Shown here piece after piece: positions 6,892 to 11,904 of a stretch of 64,000 bases of DNA. A model generated the notes under the pieces. It had not been told where the DNA came from. It searched no databases and worked only from the letters and a program-made list of their open reading frames with translations. The translations under genes and the position numbers were made by a program. Every line of letters starts with the position of its first letter. Within the stretch, counting starts at the first letter, position 1. The stretch is taken from positions 62,001-126,000 of the forward strand of contig CACYQB010000002.1 of assembly GCA_902776435.1 (NCBI GenBank), written 5' to 3'. This DNA comes from an uncultured Bacteroidales bacterium (GTDB taxonomy: Bacteria > Bacteroidota > Bacteroidia > Bacteroidales > Muribaculaceae).

Positions 6892-9411
6892 ATGATACAA
6901 CACAGACCTTCCACACGATTCTTGAGCCGCTGGCTCATGTTGTTAATGCTGGTGATGTCCACATCGCTTGCTGCAAGTGCTATCGAGGCCTATGCCTGCT
7001 ACACGCCGTCGAACACGACGCTGACGTTCTACTACGACAATTACCGCAATTCCCGTCCGGGCACGACTTTCGACCTGAGCACGGGCGCTTATCCCTCCTG
7101 GTTAGACATCTCCGATGCTGTGACCCATGTGGTGTTCAACTCCTCATTCGCCAATGCCCGCCCAACAAGCACCCAATATTGGTTTGGAGAAATGGAGGAA
7201 CTGATCTCTATCACGGGCATGCAGTACCTGAACACAAGTCAGGTGACCAACATGAGCGGCATGTTCAATGACTGCATCTCATTGACGAGCCTTGACGTGA
7301 GCCACTTCAACACGTCCCGGGTGACCGATATGTCAAGCATGTTCAGTTCTTGCAGCATAATGGGGCTGGACGTGAGCAACTTCGACACGTCCAAGGTGAT
7401 AGATATGTCTTGGATGTTCAGTTCTTGCAGCGTGACGGCGCTTGACGTGAGCAACTTCAACACGTCCAAGGTGACCAACATGAATCACATGTTCTCTGGT
7501 TGCTCCAATTTGACCCGCCTTGATGTTGCCGTTGACTATGGCAACTGGAACTCGTCCAACGTGACCAACATGGACTACATGTTCAATGACTGCAGTAGCT
7601 TGACGAGCATTGACCTGAGCCAGTTCAATACGTCCAATGTGACTAGTATGGATCACATGTTCAATGGCTGCAGTAGCTTGACGAGCATTGACCTGAGTGG
7701 CTTCAACACGGCCAAAGTGACCAACATGAACGAAATGTTCCGTAACTGTGATGCATTGACGGAACTTGACCTCGAGTTTATTGACTTCAATACATCTAAG
7801 GTGACCAGCATGAACTACATGTTCGCCTACTGTGACAATCTTGTCAGAATCTATGTCGGCAGTGGTTGGAGCACAGTTGCTGTCACCACATCTAACAACA
7901 TGTTCAAGGATAGCTACAGGCTGTATGGTGAAAAGGGCACCACTTACAATGCCAGCCACGTGGACGCGTCATATGCCCACGTTGATGGTGGCCCGAGCAA
8001 TCCGGGATACATGAGCGACAAAAAAGAAGCCTATGCATGCTATACGCCATCGAACCACACGTTGACGTTCTACTACGACGACTACCGTAGTAGCCGCACG
8101 GGAACAACTTACGACCTGAACACGGGTTCTAATGACCCTGCCTGGTACACCGATGGCATCAATAGTGATGTGACTTCAGTGCTTATTGCATCATCGTTTG
8201 CCGATGCACGCCCAACGACAACCTATCGATGGTTTTTTGGTATGAGTCTTCTTCAGTCCATCCGTGCCATCAATTACCTGAACACTAGTAGTGTGACCAA
8301 TATGGCCTATATGTTCTATGGTTGCAACAAGTTGACAAGTTTGGACCTGAGCAATTTCAACACGTCCAAGGTGACCGACATGTCATGCATGTTCGCTTGC
8401 GAGAAACTGACAAGTCTTGACCTGAGCAGTTTCAACACGTCCAATGTGACCAGCATGAATTCCATGTTCGGTGCCTGCATTGAACTGACGAGTATTGACC
8501 TGAGCAGTTTCAACACGTCCAATGTGACCAATATGGCCGGCATGTTCGACTATTGCCTTGGACTGAAGACCCTTGACCTGAGCAGTTTCAACACGTCCAA
8601 AGTGACCAATATGGTCGGCATGTTCGAAAAGTGCAGTAGCTTAACGGGCCTTGACCTGAGCAGCTTCAACACTGCTAATGTGACCCGCATGGATCACATG
8701 TTCCAAGAATGCAGTAGCCTTACGAGCCTTGACCTGAGCAGCTTCAACACTGCGAATGTGACCCGAATGTATAACATGTTCCAAGAATGCAGTAGCCTTA
8801 CGAGCCTTGACCTGAACAGCTTCAACACTGCGAATGTGACCCGAATGGATAACATGTTCCAAGAATGCAGTAGCCTTACGAGCCTTGACCTGAGCAGCTT
8901 CAACACGTCCAATGTGACCAATATGGCTAGCATGTTCGACTATTGCCTTGGACTGAAGACCCTTGACTTGAGCAGTTTCAACACGTCCAATGTGACCAAT
9001 ATGAGCGATATGTTCGAAGAGTGCTACAATCTGCAGACAATATATGTGAGCAATGGTTGGAGCACCGCGTCCGTAATTAGTGGCAATGGCGACAAAGATA
9101 TGTTCACTAATAGCACCCGCCTGGTGGGCGGCAAGGGCACTGTCTACGATGCCAACCATGTGAATGCCGATTATGCCCACATCGACGGCGGTCCCAGCAA
9201 CCCAGGCTATCTCACCGATAAGAATGCCATCAAGCGCGGTGACGTGAACGGCGACGGCAACGTGACCATCAGCGACGTGACGGCTCTGATCGACCTGCTG
9301 TTGGGCGGCGGCACCATCAATAATCCCGCAGCCGATTGCAACAACGACTCCAACGTAACCATCAGCGACGTGACAGCCCTCATCGACTTCCTCCTGGGCG
9401 GCAGTTGGTAA
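6892..9411 (+). CDS. BspA-like (DUF285) surface repeat protein with C-terminal dockerin-like module
   Basis: The 839-residue protein starts with a signal peptide (about residues 1-30, LMLLMLVMSTSLAASA). Two homologous modules follow, at about 30-378 and 380-760. Each opens with EAYACYTPSN, then has about 8 to 10 DUF285/BspA leucine-rich-like repeats of 25-26 residues (pattern LTSLDLSSFNTSNVTNM..MF..C), and closes with a YAHVDGGPSNPGY tail. The last ~60 residues hold two dockerin-like calcium loops (GDVNGDGNVTISDVTALID and DCNNDSNVTISDVTALIDFL). BspA-type proteins act in adhesion and host or community contact. Within 8641-8874 three 78-nt units are nearly identical in DNA, a sign of recent repeat expansion. 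I see no T9SS or LPXTG anchor, so how it is held at the surface is unclear. It has its own promoter and a hairpin downstream. Confidence 0.9.
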   Translation: MIQHRPSTRFLSRWLMLLMLVMSTSLAASAIEAYACYTPSNTTLTFYYDNYRNSRPGTTFDLSTGAYPSWLDISDAVTHVVFNSSFANARPTSTQYWFGEMEELISITGMQYLNTSQVTNMSGMFNDCISLTSLDVSHFNTSRVTDMSSMFSSCSIMGLDVSNFDTSKVIDMSWMFSSCSVTALDVSNFNTSKVTNMNHMFSGCSNLTRLDVAVDYGNWNSSNVTNMDYMFNDCSSLTSIDLSQFNTSNVTSMDHMFNGCSSLTSIDLSGFNTAKVTNMNEMFRNCDALTELDLEFIDFNTSKVTSMNYMFAYCDNLVRIYVGSGWSTVAVTTSNNMFKDSYRLYGEKGTTYNASHVDASYAHVDGGPSNPGYMSDKKEAYACYTPSNHTLTFYYDDYRSSRTGTTYDLNTGSNDPAWYTDGINSDVTSVLIASSFADARPTTTYRWFFGMSLLQSIRAINYLNTSSVTNMAYMFYGCNKLTSLDLSNFNTSKVTDMSCMFACEKLTSLDLSSFNTSNVTSMNSMFGACIELTSIDLSSFNTSNVTNMAGMFDYCLGLKTLDLSSFNTSKVTNMVGMFEKCSSLTGLDLSSFNTANVTRMDHMFQECSSLTSLDLSSFNTANVTRMYNMFQECSSLTSLDLNSFNTANVTRMDNMFQECSSLTSLDLSSFNTSNVTNMASMFDYCLGLKTLDLSSFNTSNVTNMSDMFEECYNLQTIYVSNGWSTASVISGNGDKDMFTNSTRLVGGKGTVYDANHVNADYAHIDGGPSNPGYLTDKNAIKRGDVNGDGNVTISDVTALIDLLLGGGTINNPAADCNNDSNVTISDVTALIDFLLGGSW
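8641..8874 (+). repeat. Three tandem 78-bp repeat units inside the BspA-like gene
   Basis: Units 8641-8718, 8719-8796 and 8797-8874 encode the 26-residue repeat ending NMFQECSS or HMFQECSS and differ by only a few bases. Flanking units at about 8530-8615 and 8920-9003 are also nearly identical to each other, which suggests a larger duplication of about 390 bp. Confidence 0.85.
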
Positions 9412-9449
9412 TGCTCCCTGCGCTGGCAACTGAATAGTTATTTATGATC

Positions 9450-9575
9450 ATTCATGGATATTCATGGTCATTCGTGTTTAAATAATGCTCTGCAATATAT
9501 GATCCCTCTGCAATCATTTACGTTAAGTAAAAAACACGAATAGCCATAAATTCCCACAAATGTCCTTGAATTTCA
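9450..9575. repeat. Imperfect inverted repeat downstream of the BspA-like gene
   Basis: CATTCATGGATATTCATGG...CATTCGTGTTT near 9450-9480 is mirrored by AAACACGAATAGCC...AATTCCCACAAATG near 9531-9562. This is an imperfect inverted repeat of about 30 bp with a 50-bp spacer. The function is unknown; it lies in the 564-bp gap before dnaK. Confidence 0.45.
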
Positions 9576-9583
9576 AGATTAGT

Positions 9584-9634
9584 GGCATCCGCATTCCTGC
9601 CAACGGGCAACGGAGTGCGGATGCCGATATTTTT
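9584..9634 (+). terminator. Long nested hairpin with T-rich tail
   Basis: GGCATCCGCATTCC (9584-9597) pairs with GGAGTGCGGATGCC (9612-9625) with a single wobble. The loop itself can pair (TGCC-AACG-GGCA). A T-rich run (ATATTTTT) follows. It is 170 bp past the BspA-like stop and may be its terminator or a small structured RNA. Confidence 0.5.
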
Positions 9635-9729
9635 GCGAGCCACTTGCGAGCATATAAACTTAGCGACTTCGCGACTTAGCGTGCGCTCAAAAGGAACGCG
9701 TAAGCCCATGGAAGAACGCGTAAGCCCCC

Positions 9730-9777
9730 TTAAACTCTAAACTCTAAACTTTAAACCGCGAGCGCAGCTCGCATATC
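9730..9777. repeat. Heptamer repeat plus GCGAGC-GCA-GCTCGC palindrome
   Basis: Four TAAACTC/TAAACTT units (9730-9756) are followed by a perfect inverted repeat GCGAGC/GCTCGC (9758-9772) and CATATC. The arrangement parallels 5065-5116. Just before it, GAACGCGTAAGCCC occurs twice (9692-9728). Confidence 0.6.
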
Positions 9778-9778
9778 C

Positions 9779-9831
9779 TGTCAGTTTTGCTGACAATGTG
9801 TCAGCCTGCCACTTTTGGCACACGGTTTGCA
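9779..9831 (+). promoter_or_regulatory. Putative sigma-54 promoter with inverted-repeat operator upstream of dnaK
   Basis: TGGCACACGGTTTGCA (9816-9831) fits the sigma-54 -24/-12 pattern (TGGCAC, 5 nt, TTGCA) with GG and GC 12 bp apart. Next to it are three half-sites: TGTCAG (9779-9784), CTGACA (9790-9795) and TGTCAG (9799-9804). The last two form a perfect GCTGACA-ATG-TGTCAGC palindrome (9789-9805). The predicted start is near 9842, giving a dnaK leader of about 134 nt. This is seen in sequence; the sigma-54 assignment is an inference. Confidence 0.55.
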
Positions 9832-9898
9832 AGACTAGGGGCGGTGACCTGTGTCATGCAGGCATCCGAGTTCAGTTTTTAGCCGACAGTAATCGCAC

Positions 9899-9945
9899 TT
9901 ACAACTAAAAACTTACAACTTACGACTAAAACAAGAATTAAAAAC
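9899..9945. repeat. Degenerate heptamer tract in the dnaK leader
   Basis: Repeated AACTAAA / AACTTAC-type 7- to 8-bp units run through the dnaK leader up to about 30 bp before the ATG. The tract resembles those at 13941-13983 and 59815-59850. Confidence 0.5.
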
Positions 9946-9975
9946 ATAAAAAACAAAAGAAAGAGAGATTTTATT

Positions 9976-11904
9976 ATGGGAAAGATTATTGGTATCGATT
10001 TAGGAACAACTAACTCGTGTGTTTCGGTTCTCGAAGGCTCCAAGCCTGTTGTGATTCCCAACAGCGAAGGCCGCAACACGACACCTTCGGTAGTTGCTTT
10101 CAAGGATGGCGGTGAGCGCATTGTGGGTGATCCCGCTAAGCGTCAGGCCATCATGAACCCCACGGGTACCGTATTTTCTATCAAACGCTTCATGGGCGAG
10201 CAGTATGACCATGTCCTAAAGGATGTGGAGCGCATGCCCTACAAGGTGGTGAACAACGGCAGCAACCAGCCCCGCGTGGAGATTGCAGGCCGTCAGTACA
10301 CACCGCAAGAGATTTCGGCCATGATTCTCCAAAAGATGAAGAAGACCGCCGAGGATTACCTGGGCACCACCGTTGACGAGGCAGTCATCACCGTGCCTGC
10401 CTATTTCAACGACGCTCAGCGCAAGGCTACCAAGGAAGCCGGTGAGGTTGCCGGACTCAAGGTGCAGCGCATCGTGAACGAACCCACCGCAGCCGCTCTG
10501 GCCTATGGCCTAGACAAGGACAACAGCGACAAGCGCATTGCCGTGTTTGACTTGGGTGGCGGTACATTTGATATCTCTATCCTGGAATTGGGTGACGGCG
10601 TGTTTGAGGTTAAGGCCACCAATGGTGACACCCACCTGGGTGGTGACGACTTCGACCAGCGCATCATCACCTGGCTGGCCGATGAGTTCCAGCAGGAGAA
10701 CAACATGGACCTCCGTAAGGATCCCATGGCACTGCAGCGCTTGAAAGAGGCTGCCGAGAAGGCCAAGATTGAACTCTCCAGCTCCACCAGCACCGAAATT
10801 AACCTGCCCTATATCACCCAGCTCGACGGTATGCCCAAGCACTTGGTAAAGACTTTGTCGCGTGCCAAATTTGAGCAACTGTGCGATGATCTGATTCAGA
10901 GCACTATCGAGCCCTGTCGCAAGGCCCTGGCCGATGCTGGCTTGAGCACCAGTGACATCAACGAGGTGATCCTCGTGGGCGGTTCGACCCGTATCCCCGC
11001 CGTTCAACAGGTGGTAGAGAAATTCTTTGGCAAGGCTCCCTCTAAGGGCGTGAACCCCGACGAGGTGGTAGCAGTGGGTGCCGCTATCCAGGGCGGTGTG
11101 CTCACCGGTGACGTCAAGGACGTGCTGCTGCTCGACGTGGTGCCCCTGAGTGTGGGTATCGAGACACTGGGTGGCGTGATGACCAAGCTCATCGAGGCTA
11201 ACACCACCATCCCCGCCCGTCGCAGCCAGGTCTTCTCGACCGCTGCCGACAACCAGCCCGAGGTTGAAATCCACGTGCTGCAGGGTGAACGTCCCATGGC
11301 TAAGGACTGCAAGACTCTGGGTCGTTTCCATCTCGATGGCATCGCTCCCGCTCCCCGTGGCATTCCGCAGATCGAAGTCACCTTTGAGGTGGATGCCAAC
11401 GGTATCATGAACGTGAGCGCTAAGGACAAGGCTACTGGCAAGGAGCAAAGCATCCGCATCGAGGCCTCCAGTGGCTTGAGCGACGCCGAAATCCAGCGTA
11501 TGAAGGATGAGGCAACTGCCAATGCCGCCGCCGATGCCGCCGAGAAGGAGCGCATCGACAAGATCAATGGCGCTGACGCCCTCATCTTCCAAACCGAGAA
11601 GGTGCTGAAGGATAGCGGTGACAAACTGCCCGCCGACATCAAGGGTCAGATCGAAGGTGCATTGAACAAGCTGAAAGATGCCCACAAGAGCCAAGACCTC
11701 GCTGCCATCGACACCGCAACCGCTGAACTCAACTCGCTCTTCGAGAAGATGTATCAGCAGGCAGGTGGCGCACAGGGCGGACCTCAAGGCGCTGGCTTCG
11801 ACCCCAATAACATGGGCGGCTTCCAGGGAGGTCCCCAGCAGGGTGGAACCCCCAACCAAGGTGGTGACAACGTCGAAGACACTACCTATGAAGAAGTGAA
11901 ATAA
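9976..11904 (+). CDS. dnaK: Molecular chaperone DnaK (Hsp70)
   Basis: This 642-residue cytoplasmic chaperone has the usual Hsp70 layout. The ATPase domain begins [15 protein letters not shown], with the phosphate and hinge motifs [11 protein letters not shown] and [13 protein letters not shown] substrate-binding domain follows from about residue 390 ([14 protein letters not shown]). A helical lid and a Gly/Gln-rich linker end in EEVK, the C-terminal motif that docks co-chaperones. No dnaJ or grpE is adjacent. The upstream region has no recognisable CIRCE element and no clear TAnnTTTG promoter; it carries a sigma-54-like element instead (9779-9831). A strong terminator follows 51 bp after the stop. 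Confidence 0.98.

Follow-up and report, generated by a model that had tools for sequence, protein, structure and literature searches.

In the window, the whole 64-kb stretch of DNA analysed here, dnaK is preceded by a compact set of promoter and operator elements (Table 1). The -24/-12 element, TTGGCACACGGTTTGC (9815-9830), matches the sigma-54 promoter pattern TGGCAC-N5-TTGCW, with GG (9817-9818) and GC (9829-9830) 12 bp apart from start to start. This agrees with the -24/-12 spacing given in a preliminary description of this DNA, and places the predicted start around 9842. The operator, whose half-sites are CTGACA (9790-9795) and TGTCAG (9799-9804) as read from the window sequence, ends 10 bp upstream of the -24/-12 element. 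Upstream of dnaK, positions 6892-9411 encode a repetitive surface-type protein; by eye, it contains many DLSSFNTSNVTNM-like repeats and its end resembles a dockerin.

Table 1. Elements of the dnaK upstream region, with positions in the window
Feature	Position	Strand	Remark
Accessory half-site TGTCAG	9779..9784	.	5 bp before the main palindrome
Main operator CTGACA-N3-TGTCAG	9790..9804	.	centre at about -45 relative to the predicted start
Degenerate half-site CTGCCA	9806..9811	.	sits between operator and -24 element
-24 element TTGGCAC	9815..9821	+	
-12 element TTTGC	9826..9830	+	its G is position 9829
Predicted transcription start	9842..9842	+	inferred as 12 bp past the C of the -12 GC
Weak short inverted repeat, 5' end of leader	9845..9864	+	5 predicted pairs, -2.85 kcal/mol
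dnaK (Hsp70 by Pfam), 642 aa	9976..11904	+	

Two overlapping inverted repeats are present at dnaK, and the middle half-site is common to both. The preliminary description had noted the TGTCAG, CTGACA and TGTCAG half-sites, all of which are there, and had singled out a 17-bp palindrome. As the recurring unit, this palindrome did not stand. An exact copy of TGTCAG-N5-CTGACA with the same spacing was found at 6 of the 24 dnaK loci among the matches listed in our collection scan (see below). Judged from these sequences, the 17-bp repeat is local, while the 15-bp CTGACA-N3-TGTCAG is the widely recurring unit.

In CIRCE/HrcA, HAIR/HspR and sigma-32 systems too, chaperone genes have a palindromic operator or a dedicated promoter. 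The dnaK promoter described here differs from these in being of sigma-54 type and in lacking the CIRCE and HAIR patterns. In the region 9412-9975 near dnaK, we found no exact copy of the known CIRCE motif, TTAGCACTC-N9-GAGTGCTAA, in line with what had been stated earlier, and no exact copy of the known HAIR motif, CTTGAGT-N7-ACTCAAG. The TAnnTTTG box had also been reported as absent. One copy does occur in 9412-9975, at 9628, but it is far from the site and, as it comes just after the GGCATCCGCA/TGCGGATGCC inverted repeat, it looks by eye like the end of a terminator lying upstream. Near the dnaK site itself, there is no TAnnTTTG, the Bacteroidota sigma-A -7 box, at a suitable distance, and a sigma-A promoter at dnaK was rejected on this ground. 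In the fuller form of that alternative, transcription would come from a standard sigma-A promoter (TTTG at -33, TAnnTTTG at -7) with an activator bound around -41, and GG-N10-GC would be a coincidence. Genome-wide, the -24/-12 pattern gave 71 sites versus 14 for the reversed pattern, a count that overstates the number of sigma-54 promoters because 16 of the 70 sites fetched contain TAnnTTTG, and which is not taken here as the size of the regulon; these 16 may be sigma-A promoters, which lends the sigma-A alternative some general plausibility.

To analyze conservation, we aligned the window to sequences from five relatives, of which three are recorded as Prevotellaceae, one as Muribaculaceae and one as Bacteroidales. 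In 9778-9830, 45 of 53 positions were invariant across the six sequences, versus 0 of the 48 positions before it. As the pattern used to retrieve the relatives had fixed 18 of the 53 block positions, the fair count is 27 of 35 unsearched positions versus 0 of 48. CCTGCC (9805-9810), between operator and promoter, was invariant in the window and all five relatives. The expectation that the two elements are conserved together was thus borne out by this alignment, and also by the multi-genome scans below.

Where the dnaK transcript is predicted to begin, CGGTGA (9842-9847) was also invariant in the window and the five relatives. With the weak inverted repeat that follows, 9842-9864 may form a 5'-end stem-loop; two of the five consensus pairs are unformed in the window, and Rfam returned no RNA family in 9400-10100.

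We also asked whether the block might have no regulatory role, being kept only by recent descent or matching by chance. Counts in the 64-kb window would allow this: a loose pattern with at most one mismatch gave 5 matches (2.1 expected), a second with at most two mismatches gave 1 (3.1 expected), and neither was significant. In the whole genome, the palindrome at two or fewer mismatches was not enriched either (99 per strand versus 87 for the reversed pattern). The exact 12-base palindrome, by contrast, has 4 copies in 3.45 Mb versus about 0.2 expected from 4^-12 by simple arithmetic; three of them precede dnaK, clpB and hsp20, and the fourth lies inside an open frame. Given that the block is conserved while its flanks have diverged, and that the element recurs before different chaperone genes in several Bacteroidota lineages, we consider the absence of regulation extremely improbable.

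Copies of the operator in this genome, with genes named by Pfam, differ in quality and spacing. The clpB copy is perfect and has the same spacing to TTGG as that of dnaK, 10. Weaker copies are found at groES (GTGACAAAATGTCGG, spacing 21), clpP (GTGACAAAGTGTCGC, spacing 0) and htpG (read by eye as GTGACGATTTGTCAC, spacing 11, with the box ATGGCATATTATTTGAG), and hsp20 has a perfect copy at spacing 72 and an imperfect one at 31. Upstream of grpE in the same genome, no clear palindrome was seen by eye, and upstream of lon there was no operator copy.

We searched a genome collection with CTGACA-N3-TGTCAG-N{6,14}-TTGGCA and obtained at least 116 loci; all 116 listed were examined, and the gene at each was called from the best phmmer match within 450 bp. 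At least 86 loci (86 of the 116 among the matches listed) precede dnaK, grpE, groES, Clp, htpG, hsp20 or lon. Among the matches listed, dnaK accounted for 24 loci, grpE for 22, groES for 19, clpB for 9, other Clp ATPases for 6, htpG for 3, hsp20 for 2 and lon for 1, and 30 had none of these genes. The range searched was 6-14; of the chaperone/protease loci among the matches listed, 85 of 86 had a spacing of 9-11, versus spacings scattered over 6-14 at the 30 loci without such a gene. The -12 G, which is outside the search pattern, was present in all 85 chaperone loci at spacing 9-11 among the matches listed, and their alignment revealed no further conserved block downstream of -24/-12. This is as sigma-54 predicts, and sigma-A does not.

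Tallied by record title among the matches listed, 82 of the 89 Bacteroidota-named loci had such a gene, and 23 of the 25 loci named for other phyla had none. The remaining two (L134 and L146) precede grpE, and both derive from a single metagenome bin that carries the label Rickettsiales NP5. Their protein start resembles by eye that of the Marinoscillum locus L104, so the Rickettsiales labelling, or the binning itself, may be in error. The matches listed also include a Melioribacter record with groES at spacing 13 and, with grpE, a record whose name says no more than "bacterium".

Further, we scanned genomes of the same order and class with the looser pattern TGACANNNTGTCA-N{0,30}-TTGGCA, where the gap is the spacing from the 15-base operator plus 1. 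The order scan (295 genomes) gave 47 sites in 37 genomes versus 6 for the reversed pattern, and the class scan (395 genomes) gave 36 rows in 32 genomes versus 7, as tallied, with 4 rows also in the order scan. The strict element pair occurred in 2 of the 295 genomes of the order, and the looser pair in 37 of 295 (order) and 32 of 395 (class), that is, in a minority, so that many genomes would have a degenerate operator or a different one in its place. The collection, order and class sets overlap in records (e.g., L138/L238 and L076/L323), and since the genomes are related and partly shared between scans, the counts are not independent.

The two scans together contained 46 chaperone-linked sites, 41 of them with the -12 G. 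Of these 41, 39 had gaps of 9-12 or 20-22, and the other two had gaps of 26 and 27. The five chaperone sites lacking the -12 G had gaps of 2, 2, 10, 15 and 24, the one at 10 belonging to a locus that has two TTGGCA copies and was counted at 20 as well. Across 76 sites, a phased gap and the -12 G coincided (46/4/5/21, Fisher p 2e-10, a value that is too small because the bins 9-12 and 20-23 were set after inspection and the genomes are related). Among the 30 sites without a chaperone match, there was no gap grouping overall. On these sequence comparisons, operator and promoter mostly appear to stand at one of two distances one helical turn apart. The Rayleigh test scored periods of 9-13 nearly alike and did not single out 10.5 bp. 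We also considered a distal spacing class, but operators 31-61 bp away were near background (21 versus 12, tallied) and indistinguishable from it. With two classes one turn apart, the bound protein seems to work from a single face of the helix, at several distances. An activator in contact with the holoenzyme would fit this pattern; a blocking repressor would fit it poorly.

As looked for on the basis of the preliminary description, the genome contains rpoN, in one copy. In the order, an rpoN match was obtained in 278 of the 295 genomes and not found in 17. Two genomes, G298 and G415 (98% and 99% complete), have chaperone sites and yet gave no rpoN match, which would favour a sigma-A promoter; as their assemblies consist of about 170 and 80 contigs, a missed rpoN gene is likely, and both have matches to the enhancer-binding protein (bEBP) described below. 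The mapped starts of Flavobacterium psychrophilum fit sigma-54, according to the available sections of PMC9723704. Together with the lack of TAnnTTTG near the dnaK site and the sole conservation of -24/-12, with its invariant -12 G, downstream of the operator in the 85 aligned loci among the matches listed, this makes the sigma-A alternative very improbable, and we regard the use of sigma-54 at dnaK as highly probable.

The search for AAA+ activators yielded one strong bEBP, encoded beside lptE. Four proteins of the genome matched PF00158 above the family cut-off, one at 222 bits and three at 27-37 bits. PF00158 matches occurred in 14 of 14 control genomes, whether or not these had rpoN, so the three weak ones probably represent other AAA+ proteins. 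When the strong bEBP served as query, one match was obtained in its own genome at E<=1e-20. This protein has 413 aa, with Sigma54_activat, AAA lid and Fis HTH_8 domains, about 97 residues between the AAA lid and the HTH, and no receiver domain; its gene lies between an acyltransferase gene and lptE. The HTH motif ISERTLYRKI was identical in all 30 bEBP sequences fetched, its own included (the best of 293 genomes). A bEBP match was found in 293 of the 295 genomes of the order, and for this reason the co-occurrence of bEBP and operator is uninformative.

Since sigma-54 needs a bEBP and the genome has one strong one, this protein is the candidate binder of the palindrome. We examined whether the palindrome is the general activator site of all sigma-54 promoters here, and this idea failed. 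At 66 sigma-54-like sites (dnaK, hsp20, groES and clpP excluded), an operator-like sequence at p<0.05 was present in 4, with 3.3 expected; the test took in 70 of the 71 sites, which are predicted promoters. When the set was narrowed to the 43 sites that keep GG and lack TAnnTTTG, it was present in 1, and in an earlier hand-picked set of 27 sites in 1 of 23 non-chaperone sites. In addition, five loci of this genome (L006, L010, L011, L012 and L013) have a perfect TTGGCAC-N4-TTTGC and no palindrome; the genes that follow are a DUF1232 gene, panC, asd, a LolA-like gene and one for a primary-type sigma factor. These sites would belong to a broader sigma-54 regulon, of which the main sigma factor may itself be a part. 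If some of the sigma-54-like sites tested are true promoters served by this bEBP, the palindrome does not act as its general site, and as this protein would also serve the palindrome-free panC, asd, primary-type sigma factor and other genes, there is room for a second regulator.

Such a dedicated stress regulator, a repressor or co-activator, would bind the palindrome and make the chaperone promoters responsive to heat; the bEBP would serve every sigma-54 promoter and need no specific site close by. Consistent with this, the palindrome is largely restricted to proteostasis genes in this genome, the panC, asd, primary-type sigma factor and LolA-like genes have a perfect -24/-12 without it, and an operator adjoining the holoenzyme at spacings of 0-11 suits a repressor. 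Operators at 20-22, 31 and 72, on the other hand, would not overlap the promoter. An RprY-like response regulator is a candidate for this role, against which it speaks that OmpR-type regulators usually bind direct repeats. In the available text of PMC3646045, Porphyromonas gingivalis RprY behaves as a repressor and binds groES, clpB and dnaK promoter DNA in gel shifts but does not bind htpG DNA, yet htpG carries the element here and elsewhere. Taken together, we consider a second regulator at the palindrome possible but rather unlikely.

Our preferred reading, which we hold to be somewhat probable, is a proteostasis regulon driven by an activator that sits on the palindrome at one DNA face; the orphan bEBP is the likeliest such activator. 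RNA polymerase with sigma-54 would transcribe dnaK from 9815-9830, starting at about 9842. A dimeric activator on CTGACA-N3-TGTCAG, directly upstream, would touch the holoenzyme from the same helix face, and at other genes one or more additional turns of the helix may separate the operator from the promoter. The predicted binder is probably an activator rather than a repressor, and the chances that it is the bEBP seem evenly balanced. That protein would most likely be the orphan AAA+ bEBP encoded beside lptE, with its Fis-type HTH and no receiver, and the roughly 97 residues that separate its AAA lid from its HTH could allow it to bind this close. A signal of misfolded protein or envelope stress would presumably reach it; we infer heat as the stimulus. 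The regulon would comprise dnaK, clpB, groES, hsp20, htpG and clpP in this genome, and elsewhere dnaK, grpE, groES, Clp ATPases, htpG, hsp20 and lon, with rsfS and an FtsH-like frame in one genome.

To our knowledge, chaperone control in Bacteroidota, a dominant gut phylum, is largely open. Classical bEBP sites, such as those of NtrC, NorR and PspF, usually lie about 80-150 bp upstream. The site described here resembles them in being a palindrome upstream of -24/-12, but in its main class about 38 bp separate it from the predicted start, and its spacings are set.

In F. psychrophilum, starts with a sigma-54 motif were mapped before groES, lon, dnaK, grpE, htpG and clpB, and there is one sigma-54, a motif SM4 and a sigma-54 regulator gene adjoining lptE (available sections of PMC9723704). 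The system here thus resembles the SM4 regulon in its chaperone genes, single sigma-54 and lptE-linked regulator. It differs in having one strong PF00158 protein versus the three given for F. psychrophilum, and those sections describe no palindrome or spacing rule, nor does the main text mention palindromes (PMC9723704). A 2025 matrix survey found chaperones enriched in Bacteroidota sigma-54 regulons and, citing another source, gives grpE of Bacteroides thetaiotaomicron and F. psychrophilum and groES of B. thetaiotaomicron as sigma-54 dependent (PMC12316311, in the parts available). Its predicted Bacteroidota/Planctomycetota chaperone cluster covers the same chaperone families, from promoter matrices; unlike the palindrome here, no operator is described in those parts (PMC12316311). 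Sigma-54 control of Bacteroidota chaperones is therefore already in print, and the sigma factor is not new. A literature search mostly at title and abstract level, with subscription papers mostly outside its range, returned no report of the palindrome, gene set or spacing rule in Bacteroidota chaperone promoters; within that range, palindrome and spacing are what is new. The pairing of a sigma-54 promoter with a palindromic operator, proposed in the preliminary description, is upheld in part, by rpoN, by the joint conservation and by the lack of any TAnnTTTG box other than the distant terminator-like one, but the surprise lies in the phased operator and not in the sigma factor (PMC9723704, PMC12316311, as available).

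Extended to the phylum, the reading would be a Bacteroidota-wide sigma-54 heat-shock response, in which an lptE-linked orphan AAA+ activator without a receiver binds CTGACA-N3-TGTCAG right beside the polymerase, or farther off by whole turns of the helix, and thereby links the state of the envelope to chaperone and protease supply. We put this forward tentatively, with some doubt. If true, a sigma-54 activator site would adjoin the holoenzyme instead of lying far upstream. A defined operator with a spacing rule allows a direct test with one sigma factor, one candidate activator and one 15-bp site.

Phased elements were also seen before other genes. One with the -12 G precedes a 124-aa frame (L293, 359-733) that has no Pfam match at E<=1e-5, and one phased site without a chaperone match precedes an OsmC-like gene. 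In another genome of the order (L235, 1500-3040), a phased element stands before rsfS, which is followed by a frame resembling FtsH by eye.
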